The translations under genes were made by a program, and so were the position numbers. A DNA stretch of 64,000 bases from Daucus carota subsp. sativus (Eukaryota; Streptophyta; Magnoliopsida; Apiales; Apiaceae). This document shows positions 1,276 to 62,856 of the stretch, piece after piece. The stretch's first letter is position 1; the number at the start of each line of letters is the position of its first letter. Where the stretch lies: positions 26,462,558 to 26,526,557 of the forward strand of contig NC_030388.2 of assembly GCF_001625215.2 (NCBI RefSeq), given 5' to 3'. The notes below the pieces were generated by a model that worked only from the letters and a program-made list of their open reading frames with translations, was not told where the DNA came from and did not search any database.

Positions 1276-1737
1276 ATTTCACCAATTTCACACACTAGTG
1301 CGTGTTAGTATGTGTATAATTGTGTGTAATTATGTAATATTATGAGTGTGTGCATAAAATTAAGCGATCTGAATGGCAATGCGATCAGATTTGAAGGTGA
1401 ATCAGGGAAATTACAATGTGTTTGTGTGTATATGTGTATGTATAGATAGAAGGTGTAAGTTTTGAACACTTCGTTCATTCATCAGCATTGTTGTCCGGGG
1501 ATGATGATGACAAGCTAACTGAGGGAAACATTTTTTGGTTTGACAAAAATGCCCCTCCAGTTTTTTTAAATTGTTTATTTTGTAGTAGTAGTTGCCATGT
1601 TTTTTTTTCTCACGCTTCTCCCGACTTAAATATAAGAGTATAAAAAAAAATATATAAGAGTATTTAAAAAAAAAAAAGTAGAAAGTTGGTGGAAGATAAT
1701 TTATCTACGAAGACAAAATAAATATATATATATATAA
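1276..1737. promoter_or_regulatory. Upstream region of the dymeclin-like gene
   Basis: This holds the 5' leader and proximal promoter of the minus-strand dymeclin-like gene. It contains GT-rich runs (about 1300-1450) and an A/T-rich patch (1625-1735). No clear TATA box was picked out. A 4.6-kb transposon begins at 1738, so the space for a promoter is about 460 bp. Confidence 0.4.
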
Positions 1738-1780
1738 GTGACACTCTAGGGAGGGCTCCTTACATAGAGTTACATAGCAC
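1738..1780 (+). repeat. Left terminal inverted repeat
   Basis: Pairs with 6267-6312 on the opposite strand: a perfect 14-bp core plus about 70% agreement over the outer 30 bp by eye. Marks the left end of the 4.6-kb element. Confidence 0.65.
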
Positions 1781-1923
1781 ACTCCAATCTGAACCATTGA
1801 TCTCATTAAAAAAAATACACGGTCAAGATTAAAAGATATTATTCTATAATTTAAAACACAATTACAACCCTCCAGAGAATACACACGGTGATACACACAT
1901 ACACACGAAGCTCTCGAGATTAA

Positions 1924-3242
1924 AGATCGAAGAAGCAACTTCACAAGAACAAATCAAGCTTGCTGCAAAAGCAAATCGAAGCTTTGAAGGTCAAAATCGA
2001 AGATATCCGCAGGTAATCCATGTATTTTTCGTTCTATAAATTAGGGTTCTAAGATGAAGCATTCAGATTCGTGTTTTATTAAAGATATTTATGAGATACA
2101 TACCTTATTTTCGTTATTTCTAGTCGACTGAAAAGAGAAATCATAATTACAATTTACAAGATGCTAAGATGAAGAGGTATGAGAAGAAATCTTTTTTTTT
2201 TTTATGTTTTTTGTATTATTTGTGTTCCGTAATAGAATATATCTAATTTTGTGTGTATCATGTATATTTTTTGATTCTAACAAGAATCTTTTTCTATTGT
2301 GGAATCATGATTAATTACATTGTAGAATATATTAATAATTTATTATATTATTTACATATATTCTGCTGTAGAGTATATGTGGCTTATATGGTTGAGATGG
2401 TTCTTTAGTAGAATAAAGTATTAGTATATTTTAGCTTTTTTAAATAATTTTTCTGTAGTTTATGATTCTGTAATAGAATATATATGATTTTCAGTATTTT
2501 GTTTTGTATAGCGGAAATGACATTCCTCCTGTTGTTTATGTAGAAGCATAAAGTTTTGTTTTATAGAATTTTGGTGTAGTTTTATGATTCCATAGTAGGA
2601 TAAATCAGATTTCTTCGGTGTTGTTTAAGTATTTTATGCTCAATATTGGAGTAATATTGGATCTAATTCTAGTGTTGTTTATGTTCTTTTTTTGTTATGT
2701 ATTCTCTAGTAGAAGTATACATTAGAAGTTCAATTTAGAATTTGGTGTAATAATTATGTGATAATATGAATTTGAGTTGTTTTTATGTTAGTTTTACTCA
2801 AAAATTTCTTATGACTGTTGATGATAATAGTTAATAAAGGATAAGTCATTTTACCTCCTTGTTAATTTGTGAATTTATGAGATTGTAAGCCCTGTAGCTG
2901 GCTAATGGATTTAGTTTAAGTGATTTAATTATATAAAATTCTTTTTCAATTTTACATCATATGTAATATGAACACAACATGAATTTATATAAATGTGTTG
3001 GTATTTACATATACAACGTCATGGTTTAGACCAACCTCTTTACAAGTTCTACATTTACAATTGAACAAGTCCTGCCTGTGTAACTTTTTAATTCACTTGA
3101 TCATGACAGGTACACACTTAAGATGGAACAAATAGAGATTCAAAAGATCATGATCGATGAAAGATACTACAAAATAGTGTGTACTGCCTTTGGAAACCTT
3201 AAAAGAGCAGCGATAGATATGTACATTCCCATAGTCAAATAA
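1924..3242 (+). other. Two exon-like segments at the left side of the TIR element
   Basis: Segment 1 (1924-2012) is open and ends GATATCCGCAG before GTAATCC, a good donor. Segment 2 (3110-3242) follows ATCATGACAG, a good acceptor, and closes with TAA at 3240-3242. Joined phase to phase they encode a lysine- and glutamine-rich, coiled-coil-like stretch (LLQKQIEALKVKIEDIRR) continuing into MEQIEIQKIMIDERYYKIV. There is no ATG in segment 1 after the preceding TAA, so translation would begin at MEQ in segment 2 or in a missing exon. I do not recognise the family; it could be captured host sequence or element-encoded. The matched phase and clean splice signals are the only support. Confidence 0.35.
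2223..2720. repeat. Left array of degenerate ATTCTATAGTAGAAT-like palindromes
   Basis: A motif of the form (G/T)ATTCTRTAGTAGAATA recurs with variation at about 2225, 2292, 2357, 2400, 2464, 2586 and 2700. Examples are GATTCTGTAATAGAATATAT at 2464 and TATTCTCTAGTAGAAG at 2700. Each copy is itself an imperfect inverted repeat (ATTCTA-N3-TAGAAT). Spacing is irregular, roughly 45-120 bp. Subterminal repeats of this kind are transposase-binding sites in several plant DNA transposon families; that role here is inference. Confidence 0.6.
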
Positions 3243-3445
3243 TGACCAATTTTAGCATCTGCCAAAAAGCCACCAAAGAGTACAAGGATGTTAGAGTGTC
3301 CATGAAGTTTGTCACTATATTTACAGATTTTGACAAAAATGGATGCAAAAGAGGTGTAGTTAGTAACTGGGAAGCTACAAATAATAGGCTATGTGAATTT
3401 TATATGTGGGAATGGCTAAGAGAAGAAGAGCTGGTTAGTTATTGA
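3242..3445 (+). CDS. Unrecognised 67-residue frame inside the TIR element
   Basis: The frame begins at ATG 3242, overlapping by one base the stop of the preceding segment. It encodes a basic, aromatic-rich peptide with FTDFDKNGCKRG and EFYMWEWLREEEL. Codon use looks more like coding sequence than the flanking AT-rich DNA, but I cannot match it to a family. It may be one more exon captured by the element, or chance. Confidence 0.25.
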   Translation: MTNFSICQKATKEYKDVRVSMKFVTIFTDFDKNGCKRGVVSNWEATNNRLCEFYMWEWLREEELVSY

Positions 3446-3882
3446 GCTTCCATATTACATGTAACAACTTTATTTCACATGTGGCTTTACTGTATAAATA
3501 TTTGGATTGTCAATAAAGCATGTTTTTATTCTTTTCAAGGACAAGTTACAGATTATTTGCAGATTAAAAATCAAAGTTTTACTTTATAGATAAATAAACA
3601 AAGTTTGAAGTGATTGCACTTATCTTATACTGCATGTCGATTTGAAAATTACAATATTTTGTGAAAAAGATTAAAAAAAGGAATTGATTTGAAATAGACT
3701 ACATATTTGGAAAGATCATTTCACCATCAAGGAATAAAGAGTTAGAATACTCTTCAAAGAGTAAAACTCTGAACTCTAATGGTCTACCACACCCCAGAAT
3801 ATACAAGGATGATAAAAGAATCGTAATGTTATTAGTAGAAACAACTTTTGTTCACACTCAATATATATACTCTATTTATATG

Positions 3883-4385
3883 ATTTTTATACTTGAGAAT
3901 CACGAATTCCCTCCAGATGAGTTTCTTGATATTCTCTTCGGTGCAGGATTGTTGCTCAAAGTCGAAACTAAAAGGCTGAGGACAAATAGGCTCCTCATTG
4001 ATGTCGTGAAGAGGTGCCAAGTATGGGAAAAAGTGCCTCATCAACTGCAAAAAAAAAAAAACAATTGTCATTACCTAAAATATGTACAAAGAAATTTAAA
4101 TTTCGGGCATGAGTTTAAAATTGCAAGTGCCCTATTAATTTTCTTTAACGGGATCATTAAAGCTCTAAATACCATTAAAGAATTAAAATAACTAATATAT
4201 AAGGAGACCTGTGACTGTGATACGCATGTTGAGATCAAAGATGAACATTTTTTCCAGCAAATCTAAAGCTCCAGGAGTAAAGAAATATAGATAAGAATTA
4301 TTTTCTTGGATGCTGGGAAAGCTGCCTTACGTATCTTCGAGCATTACCACTTTTGAAAAACTCAAGACATGGCATCGTCAGGCAA
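3883..4385 (-). pseudogene. Captured MAP kinase fragment (two C-terminal exons), broken
   Basis: On the minus strand, 4385-4209 encodes the C-terminal lobe block of a plant MAPK: SPDDA-like start, NARRYVRQL, then GALDLLEKM and RITV. It ends with donor AG/GTCTCC. After a 164-bp intron with acceptor TTTTTGCAG, the next exon (4044 down to about 3883) encodes [20 protein letters not shown] and [12 protein letters not shown]. This is the classic end of plant MAPKs of the MPK4/MPK11 type ([14 protein letters not shown]...FDFEQP...IKELIWRES). The join needs a 2-bp loss after VDEAL to reach the PYLAPL frame, there is another shift just before NARRY and a stop after QHPRK, so no functional kinase is made. 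The catalytic loop and TEY motif are absent. It lies inside the TIR element, so capture is the natural explanation. Confidence 0.85.
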
Positions 4386-4999
4386 ATCTATAAGCTTTTA
4401 AACAAAAAGAGTAACATATGTTGTCACGAAAATTCAGATTGCAAGTGGAAAATCAAAAGCTTTTAAACATTTATTGAATTTCATAATCGCTAACAACAAA
4501 AATACAAGTTTGTTTATCTCTAGATTGAAGGAGATCAAGCTGATTAGTCTAAGTTTTTAAGTGTTTTGCTCTTGAGTCTGTACAGATCGAGTTATAGCCT
4601 ATTTGTTATTATGTTCTAATTTAGGAGCTTGAAGTGAGTTGTTCAATATATTCCCGTCCAATTTTTGTAGGATTTGGATTAGAGCATCTAAACTCAATAA
4701 AAAGAATTACTAGAAAATGCAAATTAAAATATGACCATGCAACTGTATCTACTATTATAGTATTCTGAATTTCGTAATACTTGCATTTCTACTGACTATG
4801 CATTGCATATTGTCTGCAAGACTGCAATTCTCACCACCACCGCACTGTGTTGCATAACAGAATCCGCATAATGTGCAAAGTTGGAAGAATTTTATAGAAG
4901 TGAATGCTCTTACACAATAAGTGTGACAACATAAATACCTCATAACCACTTTAATTCAGATCATCTACGAAATTTAAAGAGAAAGGTTAATTAGTTTAC

Positions 5000-6049
5000 C
5001 TCGACGATATTCCACAGAGTTTGACGGTAGATTAGTGGCATGGGTCTCAAAAGGCTTGCTCTCTAGCATCATTCAAACCATCATGTCAACAAATTAGATC
5101 CAGAATATCATATATGATATAGTTCTAACCGAAACCAATTAAAAAAAATTAACTATACCAGGTAAATAATTAACTAATTGAGTATTTATGATCCAGAGTA
5201 GAATCTATGATCACAACTTTGTTCTATAATAGAATCCTAAAATAAAGATATTTTGGCAATAAAAGGAACAAATTGATTACAAGCATAAAAATCAAGTAAA
5301 AAAAATTAAAACAAGAAAATAACAAATATTACACCATTCATAGATAATTTCTGCTTCTTAACTATAGCAAAAACTTTATTCTAATGCAGAACATAAAATA
5401 ATTCTAATAGTGAATAGAAAATGATTATAATAAAGAACATAAAAACGATTCTTTTAGAAATATAAACATGATGCTAATGCAGAACATAAAAGTGAATATT
5501 AATGAGTAGCACTAAGAGCAAGTATTGATTGGAGAACACATTTATTCTATAATAGAATATATACAAAAACATTCACAATATATTACTAATTTGCTCTAAA
5601 ATATAGACAACATTTATTCAATCGTAGAACATATGCGAAATACTCTAAATACTTGTATTATATTAAATCAATTTTGTAACTATTCTATAGTAGAATATCA
5701 AGAAAGTGATGAACAATAGAATAATCAAGAAAGATCATATATTCTGTAGTGGAATAAAAATGAATCAGCAAGTTTTAACTATATCAATTAATTTTGTCAA
5801 AAAAAAAAAAAAAAAAACTATATCAATTAATGAATTAACAAATCGAGTATTTATATTCAATAATAGAATTAAAATCACAATCAAAATCAGTAAATCGACA
5901 AGTTATGAATGTAAAATCACAAATTTTTAACAATTAAACAAATTTGATAATCAAAACAGATAGAAATAGCAAGAATTAACGTAAAACCTGATAACATCGA
6001 ACATTCGGAGTTGATTTGGTAATTTGAGTTCATTCAAGAAAGAAGCCAT
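5000..6049 (-). other. Two exon-like segments at the right side of the TIR element
   Basis: An ATG at 6049 begins MASFLNELKLPNQLRMFDV, ending at 5988 with donor CAG/GTTTTA. A second open segment, 5060-5000, follows an AG acceptor and ends GTCGAG/GTAAAC. Its phase fits the first, giving ...IRASLLRPMPLIYRQTLW... as a continuation. I do not know this protein. It could be captured host sequence or a remnant of an element gene, and no further exon was found. It faces inward, as do the exon-like segments at the left side. Confidence 0.35.
5180..5880. repeat. Right array of the same palindrome
   Basis: Copies of the same motif appear at about 5191, 5221, 5376, 5541, 5611, 5680, 5739 and 5851. Examples are CTATTCTATAGTAGAATATC at 5680 and ATATTCTGTAGTGGAATA at 5739. 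A poly(A) run of 18 lies at about 5799. Together with 2223-2720 this brackets the captured kinase sequence symmetrically. Confidence 0.6.
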
Positions 6050-6266
6050 GGTTTATTGTGTGCGCCACAAAGACAGGAGGGAGAGAGGGAGAGGGAGGGA
6101 GCAATAGAAAACGTAGAGAGAGAGCGCGCCCGCAAAACAAGCCAGGAGCGTAGAGGGAGAGTAGAGAGACACACGACAAGGAACAGTAAGCATCAATGTG
6201 TTTTTTTTCAAAATATTACAGTCGTTAGATTAGATTAGATTGAACGCTGGAGATTTAATCAAGGGT

Positions 6267-6312
6267 TTACTATGTAACTCTATATAAGATGTCCCTTCAT
6301 AGAATTTTGGCC
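6267..6312 (-). repeat. Right terminal inverted repeat
   Basis: Inverted partner of 1738-1780. The run of TA dinucleotides just outside (6313-6324) mirrors the TA run left of 1738 and may be the target site. Confidence 0.65.
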
Positions 6313-7360
6313 TATATATATATATCTTTGCATCCTGGCTCTGCATATATTCTTTTCATTTCACCAATACAAATATAATCATCACGACAAATTTAATATT
6401 CCTTGAACCAAAATAAAATATCATAATAAATAACAAATTTTTAGTCTAGGGTCAGAATCTTTTGCCTTTGTGTTTCAACATTTCTTCCTTCGATCAGATT
6501 TTGTTCACACAAATTTGCTCTATAAAAAAAGTCAACATGAAAATTATAATTATAAGTCCAATTTATACACAAAAGAAGAAGATACATTTATATCACTTTT
6601 TATCATCCTCTCCACCAGCTTGCAGTTTCGCGTTTTTATTGCTTGATATAATTCATACTTTTTACAGGAATCTAAATTAAAAATAAATCAATAAGTAGTA
6701 GGGGAATATCCAAAAAATGAGACTACAACTACAAAGCAACACATTAATCACAACAAGTTTTCTCCCTAATTTGAATTAAGTAAATAAAAAACATTTGCTG
6801 ATATATTAATATTTAGATGTACAAGTAAAGTACCTCTACCTGTAGTTTTTTACCAGTGCAGAGCAAGATTAACATGTAGTTAGAACACTAATCTTTGTGC
6901 CAACCATCATCCCTTAAAATGCCTATAATGATAGCATCACAGTAGCCTGCAGATGAAGTTGTAGTTTGTAAGTTATTGATTTGGATTTTTCTTTGCTAAG
7001 TTGTGCAGTGATGAAGCAATATGTTAAATAAATGTACGTGATTGACAAAATTTGTTGCTCTACTGGAATATTGACTTGAACGTGGAACATCAGTGTTGCT
7101 TGTTGAACCAGTCTCATTGAGTTCTTCATTAAATAAAACGTACAGTTTCAACTTGCCTGCTTCGACTAGAATGAGCTCCAACGACTACTTGATTGCTTGC
7201 CCTGCCATCTCAAGATCGACAAGAACAAAAGCATATTTGAACCAAAACACATATAAAATAAGAATTAATCAAACATTTAAGTTGATAGTATGGAGTTGTA
7301 TAGTTAATTATACGGAGTTTTAAAAGATACTGATGTAATATATGAATAATAATTCGGAAG
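6313..7360. other. Intergenic DNA without a supported gene
   Basis: AT-rich. The only notable stretch is on the minus strand at about 6996-7181, open and ending LNETGSTSNTDVPRSSQ; it has coding-like composition but no start context or family I recognise. It may be a decayed transposon or gene exon. Confidence 0.3.
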
Positions 7361-8228
7361 GTCTAACCTGTGCCCTTAGGGCACATGATAAGCTGTAGTC
7401 ACAGTCATTAAATATGCATGAGTATCAGTGTATTTTTATAAAATTAATTAACGCCTTATTGATATTAACTGTATATTCATTTTGTTTTATCTTTCAAAAT
7501 TTTGTTTTTATACAAAACTTTTATTTTATTTCTAAAAAATGTCATACAATATAGAATAATTTTTTTTATCAAATTTTATATGACAACTTTTAGTTGATTT
7601 CCTCCTACAAATAATAATGAGGCCCCCCTGCATATACACTAATTTTCTAATTAAAATAAGTCATCTAACTAAAATCAACCAAATTGATATTTATAATAAA
7701 TTTATTGTAATTTTAATATTATTAAAAAATATATAATAATTAAAATTATAATACAAGTATACAACACATTAATAAATAAACGTTACTCCCTCCGTCCCCT
7801 TTTACATGTCCCTTTTGAAAAAAAAATTTGTCCCAAATTACTTGTCCACTTCTCTTTTCAAAGCAACTTTTTGTATGTTTTTTCAAAATGTAACAACTTC
7901 CAATGTTTGACTAGCATATATATATACATAACTCTATCTAATTCATTACATTTATTAGGGATATGTATGAAAACAAGATATCCACCTAACATTTTCTTAA
8001 GATGCGTTATTTTTTCAAAAGGACAAGTAAAAAGGGACGGAGGGAGTATTTGATAAATGTAAATTTTCAATTACCTTGTTAGTAATTAATGTATTGTTAT
8101 AATAATGATGCATTATATACAAAAAACTAGATGTAATAAATGCTTAAAACTTATTCAGATCAGCTGTCAACCACCACCCGGCTGTATTAAATACACACTA
8201 ACCTGTGCCCTCAGGGCAAAGGTTAGAC
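7361..8228. mobile_element. 868-bp TIR element with GTGCCC...GGGCAC ends, interrupted by a MITE
   Basis: The left end GTCTAACCTGTGCCC (7361) is matched by the right end read inverted, GTCTAACCTTTGCCC (8228). Each end contains a small palindrome, GTGCCCTTAGGGCAC and GTGCCCTCAGGGCA. No coding frame was seen. A Stowaway-type MITE sits inside at 7786-8046, so this element is the older of the two. Related ends (GTGCCCATGGGCAC) occur near 18200 and 28680. Confidence 0.6.
7786..8046. mobile_element. Stowaway-type MITE (nested)
   Basis: It begins CTCCCTCCGTCCCCTTTTAC and ends with the inverse, GTAAAAAGGGACGGAGGGAG, flanked by TA on both sides (7784-7785, 8047-8048). Length 261 bp. Ends and TA target fit Tc1/mariner-derived Stowaway MITEs. 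Confidence 0.85.
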
Positions 8229-8254
8229 AGGCCCATAATAATTATAATATTATA

Positions 8255-8489
8255 CTCCCTCTGTTTTTTAATATATGACGTTTGACTTTTTGGCACACAC
8301 TTTTAAGTGCTTTGACCGGATAGTTAAAAGTATTATTTTTGAATTTTTCTTTTTCTGAATAAAAATATACAATCAAAATTTTAATTCACAAAAAAAATCA
8401 ATCAAAAATAATGTTTTTTATTATCCGGTCAACCCACCTAAAGTTACGTGCCCAAGTCAAAAGTGTCATATAAAAAAAAACAGAGGGAG
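8255..8489. mobile_element. Stowaway-type MITE
   Basis: Begins CTCCCTCTGTTTTTTAATAT and ends AAAACAGAGGGAG, with TA on each side (8253-8254, 8490-8491). An interior arm (TTTGACCGGATAG / TTATCCGGTCAA) also pairs, so the whole unit can fold into a hairpin. Confidence 0.85.
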
Positions 8490-10226
8490 TATACAAATAA
8501 TTAAATTTTGATAATCTTGATATTATAGTACTTTCAACAAAACTCGGTTCCAAGTTTAAAGATTTTCATAACAAACAAATTGGAGATTGAGATCACCCCC
8601 GGTTGGGACTTGACTAGTGCCAGCAACCCACGCCCCCACATCCATACGGACTCTCGCATGCGCTCCCCGCACGTGTGCACCCTTTCTCCATTTCGCCTTT
8701 AAATTCTTTTTACTTGCTCATTGGATTCTTTCTCTGTCAAATGAAACAGGCTAGTATGGTTAAGGTACCAAAACATTTATTTATATATATATTAGCTCAG
8801 AAGTTAAATTTTGATATACTATATATGTTTTTAGGGTGGAGTGGAATCAAACAAAGTTTAATTAGAAATTTAAAAAAATATAGCAGAGATGGGAGATTGT
8901 GTAAAGAAGGCATGGATCAAAGATTTTTATGATTAAATTCATATATATGTGAGCACAATTGGGTAGTAGAGTTTATCTTTTGTTGGCCCAGAAATGTAAA
9001 AATCATTATTACAATAGAGGAGTGAACTCTAAAGTAGGCTGTTAGAAGATAGAAATTAAAAAATGTTATTAATAAAAAGAAATAAATAATACTTTTGAAT
9101 TGTGCATAATATATTTTAAACTTCTTTTTTATACTTTACTCGTTCATACACCCAAGTATAACCAACCAACTATAACGTTAACATGGAATAATCTGTACAA
9201 TCACAACAAATTTGTTATGCAAGTAGATTTTATTTATTCGTAAAATAACTATACGTCAACGTAGATATAATATACAGAGAGTTTTAAAAGTGAGTATCAA
9301 AAAACGAATGTGCCAAAAAAATTGAGCAACATATATGCATGTTGCGGGATCTCGAGTATACAAACGTGGCATAATTATAAAAAAACACGTATATGATGAA
9401 GTAAATAATTACTACCTTCATTCCAATTATTGCTTTACACTTTCATGTCCCATCCAATTATTAATATTTCAAAAATTATTAATTATAATAAAAAAATCAT
9501 ACTATTTTTAGTTTATTCACTATATTTTTTTTATACATCAAATATCAACCCGTCCCACTATTATCGTCATTTTATTTATTTTTTCACTTTTATTTTATTC
9601 AATTTCTTAAGTCCAATTAAGAATATTTGGGTCGGACTAAATACGGGCTAAAAATACCTTTTAAGATTTTGCCAAGAATTGGTAGGGTATAGTTGTTTAC
9701 GGAGGGGTTCGCGATTGAGCTTGACATATTTTGGACAGTTGAACATGACACTACAGCAACGTGTGGGGGATAATACTTGATACGTTAGCTCGGTTGTCTA
9801 AACCATGTAAAATATATTCAAAAAAAATTATTTTCCCCAACTTCTATTTTGTCACAACATATAATAAATTAATAATATCGTTTCAAAAAAAATTAATAAT
9901 ATTAGTTGACACTTTTTATTATAATGTGTAAGAAAAAGAGCGCCTTTTATGCTAAAATCAGAAACAATAATTGTTAATATTGAAAAATAGGACCAGCATA
10001 TATGCATAATCACAATGTATGGATAAAAATTCACAAACAATATATACGTGTCCTGTGTCCAAAATACGTAAACTGGTGAATGTGAAGGAAGAGCCGAGGA
10101 AAAGGTTGCTCCAGCTGTAGATTTTTAGCAGTTAGCATACAATATTGAGACTAATCTTAGGTCCATGCATGTCTTCTTGTCTTGCTCAGGTTGATACTGA
10201 AAAACCGGGTTTTTTGCCAATATTTT
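8490..10226. other. Intergenic DNA; GC-rich patch and a decayed MITE
   Basis: Mostly AT-rich with no supported gene. A short GC-rich patch at 8590-8690 stands out from its surroundings but has no frame. At about 9413-9640 a sequence starting ACTACCTTCATTCC and containing CCGTCCCACTATT resembles a decayed Stowaway copy, but only one end is convincing. Confidence 0.4.
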
Positions 10227-10756: not shown

Positions 10757-11569
10757 TTATAACAAAGCTGGCTCATCATCCTCCATCTGTGTGAGGTTAG
10801 CTTCTTGTCTCTGCTCCTTGTCTCGTGGTGGTTTATTACATTCTGAAGCGTAGTGTCCAAAGATGTTGCAATTATAGCACTTAATTTTACTTTTGTCACG
10901 TCCACCATTTCTGCCATGTGCTCCTCCTTGACCTCTTGTCTTCCATTTCTGAGTCAGAAGAAGTTGTTCTCCTCCACTCTCACACTTGCCTTTCATTCTT
11001 TCTTCATGAGCCTTAAGTCGACCCACTACTTCTTCAATTGTCATAGCTTTCATATCTCCAAATTGCTCGATATTTGAAGCTATTTGAAGGAACTTGTCAG
11101 GAACAGCACGTAATATTTTCCTTACCACACTCGATTCTTCCAGCGTTTCTCCAAGTACCCGGATATTGGTCACAATGCCGCTCAGCTTCATACAAAAATC
11201 ATCTATTTTTTCTGATTCCTTCATCACAAGAGACTCGAATTCTCCCTTCAATGTTTGCACCTTTGCCTCATTTACACGTTCCACTCCCATGCACATTGTT
11301 TTAATTGCCTCCCAAGCTTCCTTAGCAGTTTCTTTGTCAGCAATGGTCAGCAATATATCCTCTGGCACACCTTGATATATCGCTGCAAGAGCCATCTGCA
11401 CCGTTCTTTCATCCACGGCTACTTTAGGATCCTTTTGTTCGATTGCTCCCCAAACTCCTTGCGCCTTCATAAACACTTTCATTTTGAGGGACCATGTTGT
11501 GTAGTTACTTCTGGTAAGCATCGGGTAGTTTAAACCCACAAAACTTTCTTTTGTTTTGATTGTTTCCAT
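10757..11569 (-). CDS. Copia-type gag (UBN2/DUF4219 and CCHC zinc knuckle)
   Basis: Starting at METIKTKESF, 270 residues follow without interruption. The N-terminal part has the YTTWSLKMKVFM block of copia gag (DUF4219), the middle the long helical UBN2 region, and near the C-terminus CYNCNIFGHYASEC gives the C-x2-C-x4-H-x4-C knuckle that binds RNA. The same frame stays open upstream through the primer-binding site, but METIK is the usual start for this family. The protein ends soon after the knuckle, so nothing of pol is present. Mobilisation would depend on a related element elsewhere. Confidence 0.85.
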   Translation of the reverse strand: METIKTKESFVGLNYPMLTRSNYTTWSLKMKVFMKAQGVWGAIEQKDPKVAVDERTVQMALAAIYQGVPEDILLTIADKETAKEAWEAIKTMCMGVERVNEAKVQTLKGEFESLVMKESEKIDDFCMKLSGIVTNIRVLGETLEESSVVRKILRAVPDKFLQIASNIEQFGDMKAMTIEEVVGRLKAHEERMKGKCESGGEQLLLTQKWKTRGQGGAHGRNGGRDKSKIKCYNCNIFGHYASECNKPPRDKEQRQEANLTQMEDDEPALL

Positions 11570-11638
11570 GATTACGTTTGTGTGTTTGGGTTGATATTTA
11601 GGCATACAATAACCTAAACACAAGGCTCTGATACCAAG

Positions 11639-11944
11639 TGTTGTAAAACAAAGTGTGCATATGTACAGATAGGTGTTGAATGTATAAGAAACTGAGAACA
11701 ATAATACGTGAAGCTCTATCTTGTCATTGATTCATGCAGTACAATATATAGAATGCAGATAAGGAGTGATGGCTAAAAACAAGGCCACTAAAACAGGTAC
11801 ACCCACGACTCCTACAACAGTTATACTACTAACTTCTCCTAAATGCTCTCCACGACTCATTCAAACATGCATTATACTAAACTACCGGACTTATACTGAA
11901 ATTTTAAAACAATAAAAACAATTATATTTAAGATTATTCCAACA
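11639..11944 (-). repeat. 5' LTR of the short copia element
   Basis: Near-identical to 10227-10531. The primer-binding site adjoins its inner edge (about 11622-11636). Confidence 0.9.
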
Positions 11945-36630: not shown

Positions 36631-39600
36631 TCAATCAGTGATGTTTTGTTGCAGCATATCCTTGAGTCGACGCATTCCAATGTTACGTTGTAGCTTTACA
36701 AATGTTGAATTCGGCAACGATTTTGTGAATAAGTCTGCAAGGTTGTCACATGATCGAATTTGTTGTATATCAATTTCACCATTCTTTTGAAGCTCATGAG
36801 TATAAAAGAATTTTGGTGAAATGTGCTTCGTGCGGTCTCCTTTGATATATCCTTCCTTGAGTTGATCAATGCATGCAATGTTATCCTCAAACATAACAGT
36901 AGGACTTCTCGTGATATCCGGTAATCCACACGATTCTTGAATATTCTTGATAATAGATCGCAACCAAACACATTCTCTACTGGCTTCGCGTATTGCAATT
37001 AGTTCTGAATGATTTGTTGAGGTTGCTACTGTAGTTTGCTTCGTGGATTTCCAGGCAATGGCTGTAGCGCAATATGTGAATACATATCTTTATCTGGTTC
37101 TAAAGATCTAACCACCATTGGAGTAGTCAACGGATGAGATTTATCCATGTAAAATCTGCTCAAAACCTTTTCTGTATATGTAGATTGGTGGAGGAAAATT
37201 CCCGATGACAAGTGCTCGACTTGTATACAAAGACAATACTTTGTCTTCCCAAGATCTTTCATTTCAAACTCTGTCTTTAGATATATGACAGCTTCATCAA
37301 CCTCTGTAGCTGAACCTACAAGGTTTAAATCATCCACATATACAACAATAATCACAAAACCAGATTGTGATTTTTTGATAAAAACACATGGACAAATTTG
37401 ATTACTAATATACCCATTCTTTTCTAAATAACGACTAAGTCTGTTATACCACATACGACCAGATTGTTTCAATCCATACAATGATCGTTGAAGTTTAATG
37501 GAGTATATATGACGAGGTTTCTTGAACTCATCCATTTTTAATCCTTCAAGGATTTTCATAAAAATATCACTATCAAGTGATCCATATAGGTATGCAGTAA
37601 CAACGTCCATAAGACGTGTTTCCAATTTTTCTTTAGATGCCATACCTAATATAAAACGAAAAGTAATTCCATCCATTACTAGCGAGTATGTCTCATGATA
37701 ATCAATGCCAGGCCTTTGAGAAAACCCTTGTGCTACAAGTCGGGCTTTATATCTCACAATTTCATTCTTTTCATTTCGTTTTCTTATGAATACCCATTTA
37801 TTCCCTAACAGGGTTCACACCGATTGGTGTCTGGACAACAGGTCCAAATACTTCTCTTTTGCGCAATGAATTTAATTATGTTTGAATTGCGTCTTTCCAT
37901 TTTAGCCAGTCTTTTCTTCGACGGCATTCATCCACACTTTGTGGTTCAGGATCTGAATTTATGTCGACATCCAATGCCGCTGAATACACAAATACATCAT
38001 CGATTATGGCTTTACTTCGATCCCATAATTTCATATCATGCACATAATTTATTGAAATTTCATGATTGTTTAATCCCGAATCTTCAGGGACGGGAATCTC
38101 TTCAGGAGATAATACCACTTCAGGGGTATTTGCTTCTTCTGGAGCATGTGCCACTTCAGGGGCAATTTTCTTTGTTTTTCTTTTTCTTGGTGCAACATCC
38201 TTTGCACCGACCGGTCTACCACGCTTCAGGCGTGGCTTTGATCCTGCAACCGATTCTTTTGTGCTTGATTTCTGAATTGGTATATCTATTCTAGCTGGAG
38301 TGTTTACTGTAGGTATATGAGATTTTATTACATTTCTAGAATCGTTAAATGCGTCAGGCATTTGGTTTGCGATATTTTGCATATGGATAATTCTTTTAAC
38401 TTCAAGTTCGCATTGACCGGTACGTGGATCTAGAAAATGTAATCCTGATGCATTCCATGTTATGTCAGGATTAACCTTATTCACATGTTTATCTCCCCCT
38501 TAAGGGAGGAAACAAAGACTCGTCAAAATGACAATCTGCATATCGTGCAGTAAATAAGTCTCCAGTTAGTGGTTCAAGATATCTAATTATTGATGTTGAA
38601 TCAAAACCAACGTAGATTCCTATTCTTCTTTGAGCTCCCATCTTCGATCTCTGTGGTGGAGCAATAGGTACATATACAGCACTTCCGAAGATTTTGAAGT
38701 GAGAAATATTAGGGATTTGACCAAGTACCAGCTGTAGTGGAGAATGTTGGTTATAGGCAGTTGGTCTAATCCTAATAAGATTAGCAGCATGAAGTATTGC
38801 ATGACCCCAGATAGATGTGGGTAATTTTGCTTTCAATAACAACGGTCTTGCAATAAGTTGAAGTCGTTTGATAAAGGACTCAGCTAATCCATTTTGTGTA
38901 TGTACATGAGGAACTAGGTGTTCAACTGAAATTCCTACAGACATGCAATAGTCGACAAAAGTTGCAGAAGTGAATTCGCCGGCATTGTCTAAACGAATTG
39001 ATTTAATACAATGATCAGGGAATTGAGCTCGCAATTTGATTATCTGGGCAAGTAATTTTGCAAAAGCATCATTACGAGTTGAGAGAAGACAAACATGTGA
39101 CCATCTAGTTGAGGCATCGATTAGTACCATGAAGTACCTAAATGGACCAGATGATGGGTGGATAGGTCCACATATGTCGCCTTGGATCCTTTCTAGAAAA
39201 CTTGGACTTTCAAGCTTAACTTTAGTAGGAGATGACTGGGTAATAAGTTTTCCTAAAGAACATGCTGAACATGGAAGGTCATTTTTAGAAAAAACTTTAA
39301 GATCTCTAAAAGGATGTCCAGTGGAATTTTCTATAATACGACGCATCATAGAGACTCCAGGATGACCTAATCTTTCATGCCAAAGGGTAAATGATTTTGG
39401 ATCTATGAGTTTGGAAGCAATGACATTGTGTGACTCAATGGTTCTGATTTTCATCATATATAATCCTGAGGAAAGTGAGTGAAACTTTTCTAAGATTTTC
39501 TTGTTGCTAGAATTAGCAGAAGTGATAAGGAGATATTCTTTACCAGCAGTCTGATATCTTTAAAACTAAGAAGATTTCTAGTGGACTTACTAGAAAATAA

Positions 39601-39795
39601 TGCATTTGGAATATGTAGGTGTGTACCATTAGGTAAGATGAAACTAGCTTTACCAAAACCTTCGATTATATTAGATACGCCGGAAATCGTTCCAACTTGA
39701 GCTTCAGATTTGGTTATATGGGTAAAGTATTTTCGATTCTGTAGAATTGTATGAGTTGTACCACAATCAGCAATGCATATATCTTCAGTTATCAT
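36631..39795 (-). pseudogene. Copia pol region (protease, integrase, reverse transcriptase, RNase H), fossil
   Basis: Read on the minus strand, the parts in order are: protease with the DCGTTHTIL active-site block (near 39770); GAG-pre-integrase with HERLGHPG and the integrase core with RLDNAGEF and HTQNGLAESF (38489-39457); a linker; reverse transcriptase with ARLVAQGFSQ, YLYGSLD and the catalytic YVDDL (37026-37757); RNase H with FEDNIACI and DLFTKSLP (36631-36963). These blocks are specific to Ty1/copia. The region is interrupted several times and is not one working polyprotein. Confidence 0.9.
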
Positions 39796-39949
39796 TCTGT
39801 ATATAATTAAGAAACATAATTTATAATTTATTTAATAAAAACATATAACACATTACATAGTTCAAAATAAAGCACACAGTACACATTAGTAACTATAGTA
39901 ATTCGGACCATTAATGCTCATTCCTCCGGTTGCTAATAATTCTATGAAA

Positions 39950-40954
39950 CTAATCCTCAGCCTCCCACATGGGAGTTTCGTTAGATTCATTAGGACCATT
40001 AACGCTTATTCCCCCACTTGATATTATAAGAGAATCATCTAAGTTGTTGGCGAAATTGGTTTCCATCATTTTTCCTTTCGATCTTTTAGATGACTGATAT
40101 AAATCAACAAGATGTTGTGGGATATAACAATTATGTGACCAATGCCCTTCCATTCCACACTTGTGGCATACATTGTCAGTTTTCCCTCCTTGTGGTGCCT
40201 TTCTTTTGTTCTGTGTTTCAGGTTGCCACTTCTGGTGACCAGAACTATTATAAGGAGGAAAATGCCCACGACCACGGCCTCGTCCACGGTAGCGACCATG
40301 GCCTCGTCCACCTCTATGCCCTTTTCCACGTACATTCTGCTGGAATGTCGTGTTATTTACTTCTGGTAAAGGGGCAGATCCCGTTGGACGGGATTGATGA
40401 TTCTTAATCACCAATTCATGATTCTGCTCGGCAACAAGGAGGGTTGAAAGGAGATCCCCAAACTTGGTAAACTTCCGCTCCCTGTACATCTCGGCTAAGT
40501 TGATATTATTGGGATGAAAAGTGGATAGTGTTTTGTCGATCTTTCTTTTCTCAGTAACGACCTCACCACACATAATGAGCCTAGAACTTATTTTGAATAG
40601 GGCAGAGCTATATGCCCGAACACTCTTAAAATCTTGAAGTCTTAGATTAGCCCAATCATTTTCAGCCGCAGGTAGATAAACTAGTTTCTGATGATCGAAC
40701 CTATCCTTTAGATTTTCCCATAAAATAAAGGGATCCTCGACTTCTAGGTACTCAGATTTTAAATCTTCATGCATGTGGTGTCGGAGAAAAATAATAGAGG
40801 TAAAATTTTCTTCGACCGTGTATGTGTTTTCTGCCTTTATTGTGTTGCTTAATTTCTTTAAACCCAAGTGCAACTTTACATCTTGTACCCACGATAAATA
40901 ATTCTCCCCAGAAATGTCCAACGCAACGAACGACAAGTTTGTAAGATTTGTCAT
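39950..40954 (-). CDS. Copia gag of the 5.5-kb element
   Basis: A 334-residue frame starts MTNLTNLSFVALDISGENYL. LDISGENYLSWVQDVKLHL and FLRHHMHEDLKSEYL are typical of plant copia gag (UBN2-type). An RG-rich stretch (GRYRGRGRGRG) leads to the zinc knuckle CHKCGMEGHWSHNC, C-x2-C-x4-H-x4-C. This part reads open from end to end, unlike pol. Confidence 0.88.
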   Translation of the reverse strand: MTNLTNLSFVALDISGENYLSWVQDVKLHLGLKKLSNTIKAENTYTVEENFTSIIFLRHHMHEDLKSEYLEVEDPFILWENLKDRFDHQKLVYLPAAENDWANLRLQDFKSVRAYSSALFKISSRLIMCGEVVTEKRKIDKTLSTFHPNNINLAEMYRERKFTKFGDLLSTLLVAEQNHELVIKNHQSRPTGSAPLPEVNNTTFQQNVRGKGHRGGRGHGRYRGRGRGRGHFPPYNSSGHQKWQPETQNKRKAPQGGKTDNVCHKCGMEGHWSHNCYIPQHLVDLYQSSKRSKGKMMETNFANNLDDSLIISSGGISVNGPNESNETPMWEAED

Positions 40955-41327
40955 TATAATCTGAATTTAACACCAAAATTATTAACTTAAACTATCAATG
41001 TAAATATTACATAAAATCCTACTGAATCTGGTGCGTTAACAAGTAAGCAATAATAAATGTGTACATCATTATTATCATCGATATTATGAATAGATCTATA
41101 TATAAAATGACAAATGGATTTTCACCCGCCATACGGACGTCTGCGTATACAGGTTATCTCCAACCAACAATATTTAAGTGGAAAATCCTGCATAAGTTAG
41201 TTAGGGCACAAAATTTATTATCCGATATGCAGGCAATTTATAAATCAAGGTTCCCACTATATTTCGGTATTACCCAAAATTAAATGGTACCGTAAATAGA
41301 CGGTGCTCCGGCCATATGTAGTTAAAA

Positions 41328-54702: not shown

Positions 54703-55785
54703 TCACTCTTGTGATTCAAACCCCTCAAGGGAGACAAGGCTCTCAGTGAACTTGGCAACTGACTTGACATCGGTGAGATGAGCTGGGAAAGGAAGCTCCT
54801 TAGTCATTTTCTTTCTGTAGTTGTAAAATTTGTATCCAAAAAACAAATTGAGGCCAACAAAGTGTTCCGCACCCAAATAAAGATACACCTGATCCAACTC
54901 CAGATCCATTTCAAGAATGAACTTTTTAATCCACAAGCCACCTTCATCTAACATCCAAAGACTAAGATCTGATTCATCCCCGGCAGATTTATATACCATA
55001 GCGAGGGAACCTTCAAAATTCAAAATTTCAGACTTCTTTATCCTTTTCTGTTGCACGTGATTGGGGAACGGTAAAACTACAATTTCTCCAAACACATCGT
55101 TCCGCAAATCAAACGGCAATAGCCCACCCTCACCTTCCCAATACAACTTCCCACAGATATCAGGACCACAGAATCTCTTCACCGAATACCAAAAAGATAT
55201 TTTAATAGTATCCGGAATACGAATCTTTTTCCAAGTATCAGCATTTGCCGAATACAACAGTGCTTCTGGTTTACAGATCTTAACTATTAACCCTCGTAGG
55301 TCTTGGGCAATCTTTGTTACAATCCTAAGAATCTTGTAGTCGTTTCCAACGTAATCAAACCCAAACCCTAGACAAGTCACGGCACGATTTGCATAGCTGG
55401 GCACAGAAAGCATCTTATACTGTCTAGTACACGGATTCCAAATACATATACTATCACAACCTTGATTAGAAAGACAAACAAGACCATTACAAGAACGCAT
55501 GTAACGAACCTTACCCTCAAGACGTGATGGCAGTTTAAGCTCAACGGATTCTTCAACACTGTCCATTGAGAAAACCCTCCAATCATAAGAGGCTGCTTTT
55601 AGTACAGATGCTTGTTTCTTCCTGGAATTAGCAAGGTGGGCTTTAACAAACTGTGGGGTTGTTATGATGGATAGCCAGGTTTTGCACACTGATTTGCAGC
55701 GGAGAAGTGATATTACAGGAAGATAAGAAAGTATGAGGAACACCATCTCTTCTGATAAATAATTATTATATCTTTTAGTCGCCAT
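54703..55785 (-). CDS. F-box protein with FBA-type associated domain, intact copy 1
   Basis: A single exon encodes 360 residues. The F-box is at the N-terminus (YLSEEMVFLILSYLPVISLL, then CKSVCKTWLSII). The associated-interaction region follows: MRSCNGLVCLS, IWNPCTRQYK, LGFGFDYVGNDYKILR and LSLWMLDEGG. Such proteins join SKP1 and cullin 1 as substrate receptors of SCF ubiquitin ligases; the target is unknown. The stop is followed by AGTG and a GTAATC donor, implying a 3'-UTR intron. Compared with its neighbours at 58240 and 61673 the promoter lacks the TATA-bearing segment. It is one of three full-length copies, all on the minus strand. The start is the only ATG before the F-box. Confidence 0.92.
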   Translation of the reverse strand: MATKRYNNYLSEEMVFLILSYLPVISLLRCKSVCKTWLSIITTPQFVKAHLANSRKKQASVLKAASYDWRVFSMDSVEESVELKLPSRLEGKVRYMRSCNGLVCLSNQGCDSICIWNPCTRQYKMLSVPSYANRAVTCLGFGFDYVGNDYKILRIVTKIAQDLRGLIVKICKPEALLYSANADTWKKIRIPDTIKISFWYSVKRFCGPDICGKLYWEGEGGLLPFDLRNDVFGEIVVLPFPNHVQQKRIKKSEILNFEGSLAMVYKSAGDESDLSLWMLDEGGLWIKKFILEMDLELDQVYLYLGAEHFVGLNLFFGYKFYNYRKKMTKELPFPAHLTDVKSVAKFTESLVSLEGFESQE

Positions 55786-56120
55786 TGATATTAATAAATT
55801 TGAGGTGGGTGCTGCTAGAATAGGAGAGTTGGAGGCGAGGCGAGTTGCTCAGGATTGGATTCGTGTACGGCTTGTCAGGCAGTCTGAACCTACGAAGTAC
55901 GAACAGACGCCTCCCTCTATTTCTTCACATGGCGACTCGATTGCGGCAAATTCTTTTTCTTTATTAAGAAAAACGTCATCAATCTGCCTAAACAAATCTG
56001 CGGGTATAATAGTAATAATTTTTACCATAACAAGAATTTATTTCTATAAAAGTTATAAATTACTAAATATTTATGAGTTGCTCAAAATTGTTTATAGAAT
56101 AACCATATATTGAGGATAGA
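55786..56120 (-). promoter_or_regulatory. Promoter of F-box copy 1, with a deletion relative to its paralogs
   Basis: GAACAGACGCCTCCCTCTAT (from 55908) and the following 90 bp match 59446 and 62886 closely, so the promoter was duplicated with the gene. Between CTGAACC and the shared block, the other copies have about 28-30 bp including TATTTATA or TATTATATA; here only about 9 bp remain. Confidence 0.7.
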
Positions 56121-58239
56121 AAAAGGCATATGTTTATATATTTTTAATATAGAAATTATTTATTTTTTAAAATAAAATTAAGATATGTCAAATTATGTCA
56201 TAATAGAGCTATTTTTTCCAAGATAGGACTCCCGTGGAAGTCACTTAAATTTCTAAATTTTTATCTTCTTCAAGAAATATAACATATATTAAGCTATTTT
56301 TTTTTGTTTTTCCTATGCTCATATCAAAAAAATCTTTTTACAGATACGAAACTCGAATCTCTTTCCAAGAATCAGCGTTTACAGAATAGTATTACTCCAC
56401 TCTTGAGGAGTTCCAGTATAATCATGTACTACACAAATGTGTTTTCTTACCATCCGAAGAATCTTGTGGTCATTTATAATTGAATCCAAAACCGAAATTC
56501 TTAAAAAAAAAACCAACTAATTTCAACGGGGAAAAAATGTCCGAATTTACTTTTTTCTATTAAATGATAATAAAATATTTTCAAACACAGTCAAACGGTC
56601 GAGAATTGACTAGTTGAAAATACGTTATAATTAATCGGTCATAACTTAAACCTTATTATGTAATTTTCCACCGACGTATATACACACGCCACAGAAAATA
56701 AACATAAATAGAGCAGGACAGGATAATAATATGTGATAAAACTAACTATCTATTCAGTATGTGCAATGAAACTGTTTGTACATTCAGTATGAAACTTAAG
56801 AATTGCATAGTGGAAATGTATGTGTATTTTAGAGCATCACTCCATACTTCACTCTTAAATCATATTTTTAGAGAAAATGTTTTCAAATTTCACTCCAACA
56901 ATTTTCTAAATCTTTCTCAAATAATTAAGATTTAATAATTTATATTAATTTTGAGGAGGATGCTAAGAGATTATCCGAGTTGCTCTTACAAACTATGAGC
57001 TTAATTTCTTAACTTACAAATTCTTTTAAAAACAGATACAACAATGTATAACTATTATCAAAATAATGTTTGAAACTTCTACAATCTAAAATGCAAAATT
57101 AATTCATTTTTTTTAAACTTTGAGTTTAAGATTGATTTGTGATTGCACATCATATTTTTGAAATTCAAACTTTAAAAAACAGAAATTTAAATATACATTT
57201 GAAAAGACAAATTTTCAAAATAAGTTAAAAATGTAAATTTTCACATAGTTTCTCAAAAATTTATTGTTCACAACAAGTGAAACATTAATGTGATCACAAA
57301 AGTGGAGATAATAATATTATTTTATTCATCAATCTCAAAAATATCATTTTAATCACTTACCTTAAAATATATAAGCATTATCTTAAAACCTTTCGAATTT
57401 AAAAAAGAGTAAAACTACTTCAAAATTGTTAAAATTTTAAAAGTTTTGAAAAATGTTATAAATAATATCTTGTCCATAGATGGTATGGTGCTAAAAAAAA
57501 CAAAAGAGTTCACTAGTTTTGATAGCTGTAAATAACAAATCAAATTTTAAAATCTGAATATATTTTCAGAAAAATTAGAATTCATGCACACTGTTTTATT
57601 TGGTTGTGTTAGCATGAAAAAAAATGTGAAAAACTCAATAAAAAATTATTTTAGTAAAGTTATATCTTTACTTCGCTGATCAATTTAAAATTTTATGTCT
57701 AGCAAACTGGAAAACCAATTTGCTTGCTTTGGCTAGCTTTCTGAGGCCAAAAATGACAATAAAACGAATGAGAACAATTAAATCTATGAAGCTCTGAGCA
57801 ACTAATTAATTCAAGCCTACCATGAAATCCAGGGCAAACGAAAGAAAAGCAACTTTTTCCCATCCACCTAAACGTAATAATTCTTATAAGTACAAATCCA
57901 TCCATTACAAGGACGACATATATAGATATATCAAAATTTCAACTTATTTTACAACAAAGCAGTACTCAATGACAAGGCTTTAGAATAATCCCCTTGTCCC
58001 TCTACATGTACAAACATACAAAACAAACAAGCTGGTCTTGTTATAAACACATTTGCCACAAATATGATCGACTCTTCCTTTCCCTTAAATGACCCTGCAA
58101 AGGATTACAAGAATGCCAGGCTAAACACTTGATAACATTTGTAAAAAAATTAGCTCGAATTCTCGAAAAGTAAACAAACAGTAATTCTACTAAATTGAGC
58201 ATTCTTTCTTTCACATTATAAAAGTTACAGCTTACCACT
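56121..58239. other. Spacer between F-box copies, with a decayed F-box middle segment
   Basis: At about 56345-56500 the minus strand resembles the middle of the F-box genes (ATTCTTGGAAAGAGATTCG and, further on, CACAAGATTCTTCGG, matching the TWKKI...NDYKILR part), too decayed to read. 56580-57900 is AT-rich with nothing recognised. 57940-58100 corresponds to the 3'-UTR of copy 2 (second exon begins at 58093 on the minus strand). Confidence 0.5.
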
Positions 58240-59319
58240 TCACTCTTGTGATTCAAATCCCTCAAGGGAAACCAGGCTCTCAGTGAACTTGACAACTGAC
58301 TTGACATCGGGGGATGAGCTGGGGAAGGAAGGTTCTTAGTCGTTTTCTTTCTGTAGTTGTAAAATTTGTATCCAAAAAATATATTGAGGCCAAGAAACTG
58401 CTCAGCACCCAAATAAAGATATATCTTATTCAACTCCAGATCCGTTTGAAGATTGAACTTTCTAATCCACAAGCCACCATCATCTAACATCCAACGACTA
58501 AAGACTGATCCATCCCCGGCAGATTCATATACCACAGCGAGAGAACCTTCAAAATCCAAAATTTCAGACTTCTATATCCTTTTCCGTTGCCCGTAAATGG
58601 GAAACGGTAACACTACAATTTCCCCAAACACATCGTTCCGCAAATCAAACAGCAATAGCCCAGCCTCCCCTTCCAAATACAACTTCCCACTAATATCAGG
58701 ACCACAGAATCTCTTGACCGAATACCAAAAAGATCTTTTAATAGTATTCAGAATACGAATCTTTTTCCAAGTATCAGCCTTTGCGGAATACAAAAATGCT
58801 TCTGGTTTATAGATGCGAACTACAAAACCTCGTAGGTCATGGTCAACCTTTTTTACAAGCCTAAGAATCTTGTAGTCGTTTCCAACAGAATCAAACCCAA
58901 ACCCTAGACAAGTGAAGAAACGATTTGCATAGTTGGGGACAGAGAGCATCTTATACTGTCTAGTACATGGATTCCGAATACATATACTATCACAACAATC
59001 ATTAGAAAGACAAACAAGACCATTACAAGAACGCATGAAACGAACCTCACCCTCAAGACGTGATGGCTGTTTAAGCTGAACTGATTCTTCAACAGTGTCC
59101 ATGGACAAAACCCTCCAAGCATCAGAGGCTTTGAGCACAGATGCTTGTTTGTTCTTGGAATTAGCCAGGTGGGCCTCAACAAACTGTGGGCTATTTATGA
59201 TGGATAGCCAGGTTTTGCACACTGATTTGCAACGGAGAAGTGATATTACAGGAAGATAGGAAAGTATGAGGGAACACCATCTCTTCGGATAAATAACTAT
59301 TACATCTTTTAGTCGCCAT
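58240..59319 (-). pseudogene. F-box copy 2, pseudogene
   Basis: Full length and close to copies 1 and 3 but with at least three breaks. An extra C near 59270 (GTTCCCTCATAC for GTTCCTCATAC) shifts the frame inside the F-box. A TAG at 58572-58574 (KRI-stop-KSEIL, lysine in the other copies) ends the middle. A small deletion near 58308 shifts the C-terminus. Everything between is well preserved (MRSCNGLVCLS, LGFGFDSVGNDYKIL), so inactivation looks recent. The TATA box at 59419-59426 and the 3'-UTR intron signals (donor 58235, acceptor 58094) are still intact, so it may be transcribed. A sequencing or assembly error could account for one break but hardly for three. Confidence 0.88.
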
Positions 59320-59418
59320 TTGAGCCCTAGAAATGATTATGATAAATTTGTGATTTGGTGTTGCAGATAGAGGTGGTATATAAGATAGAGTTGATTCTCG
59401 TTAGGCAGGTCTGAACCC

Positions 59419-59426
59419 TATTTATA
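59419..59426 (-). promoter_or_regulatory. TATA box of F-box copy 2
   Basis: Minus-strand GGGTATAAATAGGG, about 100 bp upstream of the pseudogene's ATG at 59319. Confidence 0.7.
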
Positions 59427-59670
59427 CCCGTTGTACCCTACACAGCGAACAGACGCCTCCCTCTATTTCTTCACTTCGCGACTCTTCGAGTAAATTCCTT
59501 TTCTTTATCAAGAAAAACGTCATCAATATCTGCCTAAACAAACCTGCGGGTAAAAGTTTTATCCGCAGATTTTTGCCATAATAAGAATTTATTTCTAAAA
59601 AATTTATAATTACTAAATATTTAGTGAGTTGCTTAAAATTGTTTATTTTATAAAAATTAACCAAATATGG

Positions 59671-60430
59671 AGGATAGAAAAAGGTATATGTTTATATATA
59701 TTTTATATAGAAATAATTTAAATTTATTTCTTAAAATAAAATTAAGATATGCCAAATTATGTCATAATAGAGACATTTTTTCCAAGACAGGACTCCCGGG
59801 TAGGTCACTTACTTTTCCAAGTAATTTTTAAATTAAAGATTTTATAAATTTTTATCTTTTCAAAGAAATATAATATATATTAGACTTTCATCTAAAAAGT
59901 TTGGAATACTATTTCAATTATGAAATCAAATTATTTAAAAATATGTAGAATTTTATATAATTTGTAATTAAGATTATTCGTATCTCCTCGTAATCTATAA
60001 ACTTTATCTTGAACTGATAATTCATTAAATTATTTACACTAATTTTGGTATTAAAATGTAAAATAGGTCATATATATGTATGTATATTTTATATATTTCT
60101 AATACAGAAATAATTTTTCTTAAAATCAAATTAAGACATGCCAAAATATTATGTCATAATAGAGCTATTTTTTTTTTTTTAATATAGGACTCCCACGTAA
60201 GTCACTTACTTTTCCACATAATTCTAAAGTAATTTTTTTTTAAATTTTTATCTTTTCAAATATATTACACTTTCATCTAAAAAATATTTAAAACGTTATT
60301 TCAATTATGAAATGAAAGTATTTAAAGATAAGTGAAAATTAATATAATTTATAATTAAGAATATTTGTATCCACTCGTAATTTATAAATTTTATTTTGAA
60401 CTAATTAATTCATTGAATCATTTACATTAA
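59671..60430. repeat. Tandem duplication inside the spacer upstream of F-box copy 2
   Basis: 59671-60060 and 60064-60430 are diverged copies of one unit of about 390 bp. Both contain TTATGTCATAATAGAG, then GGACTCCC and GTCACTTACTTTTCC, and later an AAAATGTAAAATAGGTC-type end. The spacer upstream of copy 1 (56111-56330) has only one such unit. Confidence 0.7.
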
Positions 60431-61330: not shown

Positions 61331-61672
61331 GAGTTTAAAATTATTAAGAAAATTATATACAAAAATTTCAACCTATTTTACAACAAAGCAGGGTGTACTT
61401 GGTAGACTCAATGACAAGGCATTAGACTTACCCCGTTGTGCTCTCTACATTACACAAATTTACGAAACAAACAAGCTGGTCCTATTATAAACACATTTGC
61501 CGCAATTATGCTGGACTCTTCCTTTCCCAGGTACGACCCTGCAAAAGATTACAAGAATGTCAGTCTAAAAACATCTGATAACATTTGTAAAAAATGAACT
61601 CGAAAAGAAAACAAACGATAATTCTACGAAATTGAGCATTCTTTCTTTCACAATATCAAAGTTACTTACCAC
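61331..61672 (-). other. 3' UTR and 3'-UTR intron of F-box copy 3
   Basis: On the minus strand the stop TGA is followed by GTG and then donor GTAAGTAAC (61669). The acceptor CTTTTGCAG is at 61539-61547, and the second 3' exon begins GGTCGTACCTGGG at 61538. Copy 2 has the same arrangement. Confidence 0.6.
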
Positions 61673-62758: not shown

Positions 62759-62856
62759 TGAGCCCAAGAAATGATTATGAAAATAATAAATTTGTGATTT
62801 GGTGCTGCAGATAGAGGTGGTAAGAAGAGGGGTGCGAGACTAGGCATTCTGAACCC

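Follow-up and report, generated by a model that had tools for sequence, protein, structure and literature searches.

We describe an element of about 4.6 kb in a 64,000-nt stretch of carrot nuclear DNA (Daucus carota subsp. sativus, contig NC_030388.2, positions 26,462,558 to 26,526,557), called here the window, which is the scope of every count given for it. The element is bounded by imperfect terminal inverted repeats (TIRs), lies between runs of TA, and holds part of a mitogen-activated protein kinase (MAPK) gene. It is probably an old, non-autonomous DNA transposon with TIRs of ~43 bp, sitting in (TA)n and carrying an MPK4-like 3' fragment copied at the DNA level. This kind of event is already known in plants. 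A Mutator-like superfamily is probable but unproven, because the assignment follows from resemblance to published TA-microsatellite Mutator-like elements (MULEs) and has neither a transposase nor a legible target-site duplication behind it.

Ends of the element

The element spans 1737-6312 (Table 1), and its left end thus lies one nucleotide outside the position, 1738, given in an earlier sequence-only reading of this DNA, whose proposal of a transposon-like unit with inverted-repeat ends is otherwise borne out. The arms align over 43 columns, 31 of them identical (~72%), with a perfectly matching 14-nt core, ATAGAGTTACATAG, at 1764 and 6270. Compared without the TA repeats, the two terminal 60-nt segments gave a local score of 36, a value reached by 0 of 19,957 random pairs of 60-nt segments from the window (maximum 34), a clear but narrow margin. 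A wider comparison of the ends scored 51, equalled by one of 3000 random pairs of 240-nt segments from the window and by none of 2000 shuffles, and this figure overstates the arms because the flanking TA repeats are counted in. The core alone is unconvincing, since the window has 10 further inverted pairs of 14 nt that are exact and non-simple, at distances of 1-8 kb, and three of these link TACTCCCTCCGTCC ends of the miniature inverted-repeat transposable element (MITE) type.

The arms combined with the TA runs are convincing ends. Runs of at least six TA units occur exactly twice in the 64,000 bases, each directly outside one arm; the element was therefore probably inserted into a TA microsatellite, like MuTAnT, SaTar, Micron and MiM elements. 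Chance might instead have placed inverted repeats and TA runs around a resident, decayed MAPK pseudogene, given that short inverted repeats are common in the window (the 10 pairs above) and that the arm score barely exceeds that of the best random pair. No random pair equalled that score, however, and each end of the element has one of the window's sole two long TA runs next to it; we regard a chance arrangement as highly improbable.

The captured kinase fragment

The cargo, which runs on the minus strand from 4394 to 3901, is the tail of an MPK4-like MAPK gene: the final two exons that can still be recognised, with the intron that separates them. The exon 6 piece matches plant MPK4 (PDB 7w5c) with a phmmer E of 3.3e-17; the open half of exon 5 alone reached only 0.012, and tblastn with an MPK4 protein as query gave rows for the exon 5 piece at E 1.4e-8. 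Frameshift-aware alignment to an MPK4 protein sequence that agrees in part with the PDB alignments gave exon 5 a score of 154 and exon 6 one of 193; controls reached at most 57 with 12 shuffled proteins, 50 in 10 other regions of the window and 44 on the plus strand of the element. Pfam reported no family for the MAPK pieces.

These alignments agree with the sequence-only reading in finding two MAPK exons in the right order and orientation, separated by their intron, on the minus strand inside the inverted repeats. It had placed them at 3883-4385; the location stands and the limits shift, with exon 5 reaching ~4394 and no significant MAPK homology found past 3901. The exon 6 acceptor, T-rich and ending in TTTGCAG, and the AG before exon 5 are kept, and the donor region of the intron carries a TCACAG duplication-like change. 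Because the intron is retained, the source was DNA and not mRNA, in line with the gene capture at the genomic level that had been proposed. Three frameshifts, one in-frame stop and the loss of the native C-terminus were counted in the frameshift-aware alignment, so the kinase part is broken, as had been claimed, and encodes no working kinase; any present effect would be regulatory, and antisense or small-RNA action is possible. A candidate exon 4 at ~5000-5090, plausible by eye in the DNA, was rejected (frameshift-aware score 18, a value reached by 125 of 150 random segments), and the best frameshift-aware score for any further upstream MAPK exon across 4397-5990 was just 29.

The kinase piece could have come separately, by nested insertion or segmental duplication, the inverted repeats being unrelated to it; with a single copy at hand, co-mobility is not demonstrable. 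Against this, the piece is central between the arms and subterminal arrays, and the 64 kb hold no other MAPK sequence, all other tblastn rows in the window being at E 0.47 or worse. The exons thus do not continue outside the repeats as a resident gene, an outcome that the earlier reading had named as telling against it. We judge a separate arrival distinctly unlikely.

Subterminal palindrome arrays

The palindrome ATTCTATARTAGAAT(AT) is arrayed in both subterminal regions and so brackets the cargo. Counting matches of at least 13/17, 20 of the 43 in the window fall in the element, which is 7% of the sequence, and 23 in the other 59.4 kb; two lie mid-element, at 4167 and 4747. First-order Markov versions of the element (n = 40) had a mean of 2.35 and a maximum of 6, and all six window occurrences of a stricter form, TTCTNTANTAGAA, are inside the element. 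The enrichment is partly post hoc, because the consensus was derived from the element itself. The arrays may bind the transposase or host factors, or may derive from a satellite that has decayed.

Target site and superfamily

Every duplication length tried, from 5 to 12, fits inside the TA flanks, and the superfamily is therefore not tellable from the duplication. CACTA elements have CACTA/CACTG termini at both ends; the ends here read AGTGACACTC and GGCCAAAATT and do not fit that class. Nor do they fit Helitron, whose members lack TIRs and have a 5' TC and a 3' CTRR after a hairpin: here TIRs are present and CTRR is at neither end. The last 62 nt of the element fold weakly (-9.4 kcal/mol).

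The element might instead belong to another superfamily of TIR transposons (hAT, CACTA-like, PIF/Harbinger or Tc1/mariner) and have entered a TA run with its MAPK fragment, the palindromes then being its transposase-binding sites, and any duplication length tested would suit this too. Subterminal motif arrays, present here, are typical of CACTA and hAT elements, and the right end begins GGCC, which we take to be a Harbinger-like start. For soybean, the published excerpts to which our literature comparisons refer describe a CACTA element that mobilises fragments of genes (PMC1947982). Neither CACTA nor GGCC stands at the start of both ends, however, and the published families that prefer TA microsatellites are assigned to Mutator; we hold another superfamily to be unlikely.

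For TA-flanked families, that assignment comes from 9-10 bp duplications outside microsatellites or from Mutator-like autonomous relatives. MuTAnT of Medicago has 218 copies, just 14 of them outside perfect (TA)n and those with 9-nt duplications, as well as a 4.9-kb autonomous relative, AutoMuTAnT, with a mudrA-like transposase (PMC4486113). It resembles the carrot element in its (TA)n flanks, its mean TIR of 47 bp, close to the arms here, and its frequent position near genes, but is mostly 200-300 bp long with GGGG ends, whereas the end sequence here is another, and gene capture goes unmentioned in the excerpts (PMC4486113). The SaTars of guayule and rice, which include Micron and are termed non-autonomous MULEs, are likewise bounded by TIRs (40-250 bp in guayule) and targeted to microsatellites, often (TA)n, but they measure ~0.4-1.9 kb, a captured gene fragment is not described in the passages available, and three of the five rice families are listed as non-Pack-MULE (PMC5907723). 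Carrot MiMs comprise 15 families with TA flanks, 3 of the 15 having related putative autonomous Mutators; the TA-flanked Ac-mMITEs of pineapple are assigned to Mutator, and their description, as excerpted, reports no related autonomous element. With this microsatellite-targeted class (SaTar, MuTAnT, Micron, MiM) the element shares TA repeats on both sides and terminal inverted repeats.

The same element could have arrived by homologous recombination of a circular intermediate with terminal TA repeats rather than by cut-and-paste. The SaTar authors, who find that many microsatellite flanks misfit cut-and-paste, suggest this route (PMC5907723), the carrot MITE paper repeats it, and pure TA on both flanks would be expected from it also. 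Its authors nevertheless call it speculative (PMC5907723), and the 9-nt duplications of MuTAnT copies outside perfect (TA)n fit transposase insertion (PMC4486113); we consider it improbable for the carrot element.

That misfit of microsatellite flanks weighs against a transposon inserted by cut-and-paste, and several of our own observations weigh against the reading that we favour. Both arms are short and diverged, the 64-kb window holds no second copy, and the target-site duplication is unreadable because both flanks are TA repeats. A Pfam scan of all six read-through frames found no transposase remnant (0 families), weak evidence in that the same scan missed the MAPK pieces and is insensitive to short decayed fragments. 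Long diverged inverted repeats of ~1 kb are marginal: their score of 83 was reached in none of 200 first-order nulls, the best of which had 82, and in none of 289 pairs from the window. Under each of four scoring schemes no more than 1 of 300 order-2 nulls did as well, but local shuffling of both arms matched the real score in 11, 23, 17 and 3 of 300 trials under the four schemes, and shuffling of the right arm alone in 6, 13, 8 and 2 of 200.

Pack-MULEs, to which the sequence-only reading had likened the element, are also non-autonomous and carry a gene fragment between TIRs (PMC3276141, PMC3310237), and in the window MAPK exons 5-6 lie inside the arms only. They mostly have long, similar TIRs and a readable 9-11 bp duplication, unlike the short, diverged arms and unreadable duplication here; TIRs are long in the majority of plant MULEs, and libraries require 100 bp at 80%, compared with ~43 bp at 72% in this element. 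Because its arms are this short, we do not file it as a Pack-MULE: the likeness holds for the mode of working, a captured fragment between TIRs, and fails for the length of the TIRs. Pack-TIR elements, too, hold captured non-transposon sequence within a TIR element, with gap filling or template switching proposed as its origin, but were described in animals, in whose reference genomes no Pack-MULEs were found (PMC8277862).

Proposed origin and inward-reading units

We suggest that the kinase piece was acquired before insertion, by gap repair or template switching, and that a Mutator-type transposase acting in trans would then have cut and pasted the element into TA repeats, the expected 9-10 bp duplication being hidden inside the repeat. 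Mu and MULE TIRs have inward promoters and convergent transcription (PMC3276141, PMC3310237). If this holds here, inward promoters near both ends may read the MAPK piece, the right-end unit in sense and the left-end unit in antisense.

Base composition is mirrored about the middle of the element and therefore fits two inward-reading (convergent) units with T-rich introns. On the plus strand the left subterminal region is T-rich (AT skew -0.14, -0.26 and -0.21 in windows from 2037, 2337 and 2637) and the right one A-rich (+0.26, +0.18, +0.22 and +0.31 from 5037, 5337, 5637 and 5937); the outermost 300 nt of each side have skews of opposite sign, +0.25 on the left and -0.05 on the right. Table 1 lists a leader-like stretch and a possible first exon reading inward. 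The open frame at 1833-2036 had no Pfam match and the right-end possible first exon (MASFLNELKLPNQLRMFDVIR) no significant Pfam or PDB match; the hypothesis that this exon joins a guessed second exon near 5000-5067 was dropped. The open stretches within 3084-3442 gave no significant match (best E 0.075 in Pfam, below the cut-off, and 0.67 and 0.59 in PDB). That Pfam value, a sub-threshold similarity to Cauli_VI, belongs to the 80-aa stretch at 3203-3442 on the plus strand; this stretch may be another piece of captured sequence or what is left of a transposon gene. A bacterial-type scan, irrelevant to a plant, found 21 promoter-like sites against 29.4 expected and 0 terminator-like sites against 1.4.

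Table 1. Features of the element and its immediate flanks (window coordinates)
Feature	Position	Strand	Remarks
Left flanking (TA)7, presumed insertion target	1723-1736	.	scan of window for (TA)6+ runs
Left terminal inverted repeat	1737-1777	+	31/43 aligned columns identical to right arm
Left subterminal array of ATTCTATARTAGAAT(AT)	1841-2717	.	11 matches of at least 13/17
Leader-like stretch, inward from left end	1860-2012	+	putative, by inspection; possible donor CAG/GT at 2012/2013
Open stretch, 52 aa	3084-3239	+	possibly more captured sequence, or a remnant of transposon coding
Open stretch, 80 aa	3203-3442	+	as for the preceding stretch
MAPK exon 6 fragment (begins VDEAL)	3901-4044	-	one frameshift; native C-terminus and stop missing
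Retained MAPK intron, ~170 nt	4045-4214	-	acceptor TTTTTGCAG intact, donor region altered (ATCACAGTCACAGGT); boundaries by inspection
MAPK exon 5 fragment (LIDLPDDA...GNARRYVRQLSQHPRK(stop)...GALDLLEKMFIFDLNMRIT)	4215-4394	-	two frameshifts, one stop; AG acceptor just upstream
Right subterminal array of ATTCTATARTAGAAT(AT)	5219-5869	.	7 matches of at least 13/17
Possible first exon, inward from right end	5988-6049	-	putative, by inspection; CT-rich leader, CCATGG start, MASFLNELKLPNQLRMFDVIR, donor CAG/GT
Right terminal inverted repeat	6270-6312	-	aligned to left arm as 6312-6270
Right flanking (TA)6	6313-6325	.	includes half unit (whole units 6313-6324); (TA)6+ run scan

Wider meaning

It is possible, and we put this forward tentatively, that microsatellite-targeted Mutator-like elements, which the excerpts portray mostly as short and free of gene cargo, also capture multi-exon host gene fragments and carry palindromic subterminal arrays flanking the cargo. 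If so, TA repeats in promoters could receive gene fragments from such elements. TIR transposons that capture genes are known to give rise to new genes and regulatory RNAs in plants, and where the capturing element is one that targets TA repeats, such capture would be tied to safe-haven insertion near genes. One decayed copy is an example and not a principle. In listings and passages of the open-licence literature we found no description of TA-microsatellite targeting combined with captured exons; two forms of the TIR core had no text match there, no listed title joining Pack-MULEs and mitogen-activated protein kinases concerned capture, and the sole listed match for TA microsatellites, Mutator-like elements and host gene fragments together was an arthropod paper in whose available passages the terms are unlinked.

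Surrounding sequence

The start codon of a likely dymeclin gene is ~0.46 kb from the insertion site, which is upstream of it. The probable first exon of this dymeclin-like gene, a tentative name, is at 1083-1275 on the minus strand (Pfam Dymeclin E 0.062, below the cut-off). Nine of ten open frames from the window had Pfam matches at E up to 1; Copia-type gag and integrase, Auxin_canalis, F-box and DUF4005 passed their cut-offs and IQ did not, a content from which we take the window to be plant nuclear DNA.

Other mobile sequences are present. At the window's left edge, TGGTATCAGAGCT at 98-110 is similar to a retrotransposon primer-binding site for initiator tRNA-Met. Copia-type retrotransposon coding regions occupy 38489-40966 and 10757-11731 on the minus strand, with integrase or gag domains above the cut-off in 38489-39559 and 10757-11731 and below it in 39950-40966. 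Small inverted-repeat elements with ends of the CTCCCTC(C/T)GT type, which we take to be Stowaway-like, occur at 7784-8048, 8251-8493, 15820, 16081 and 20340. Three related F-box-type frames stand in tandem at 54703-62839 on the minus strand, the outer two of them covered by the Pfam scan, and the middle one (58041-59336) has an in-frame stop at ~58572.

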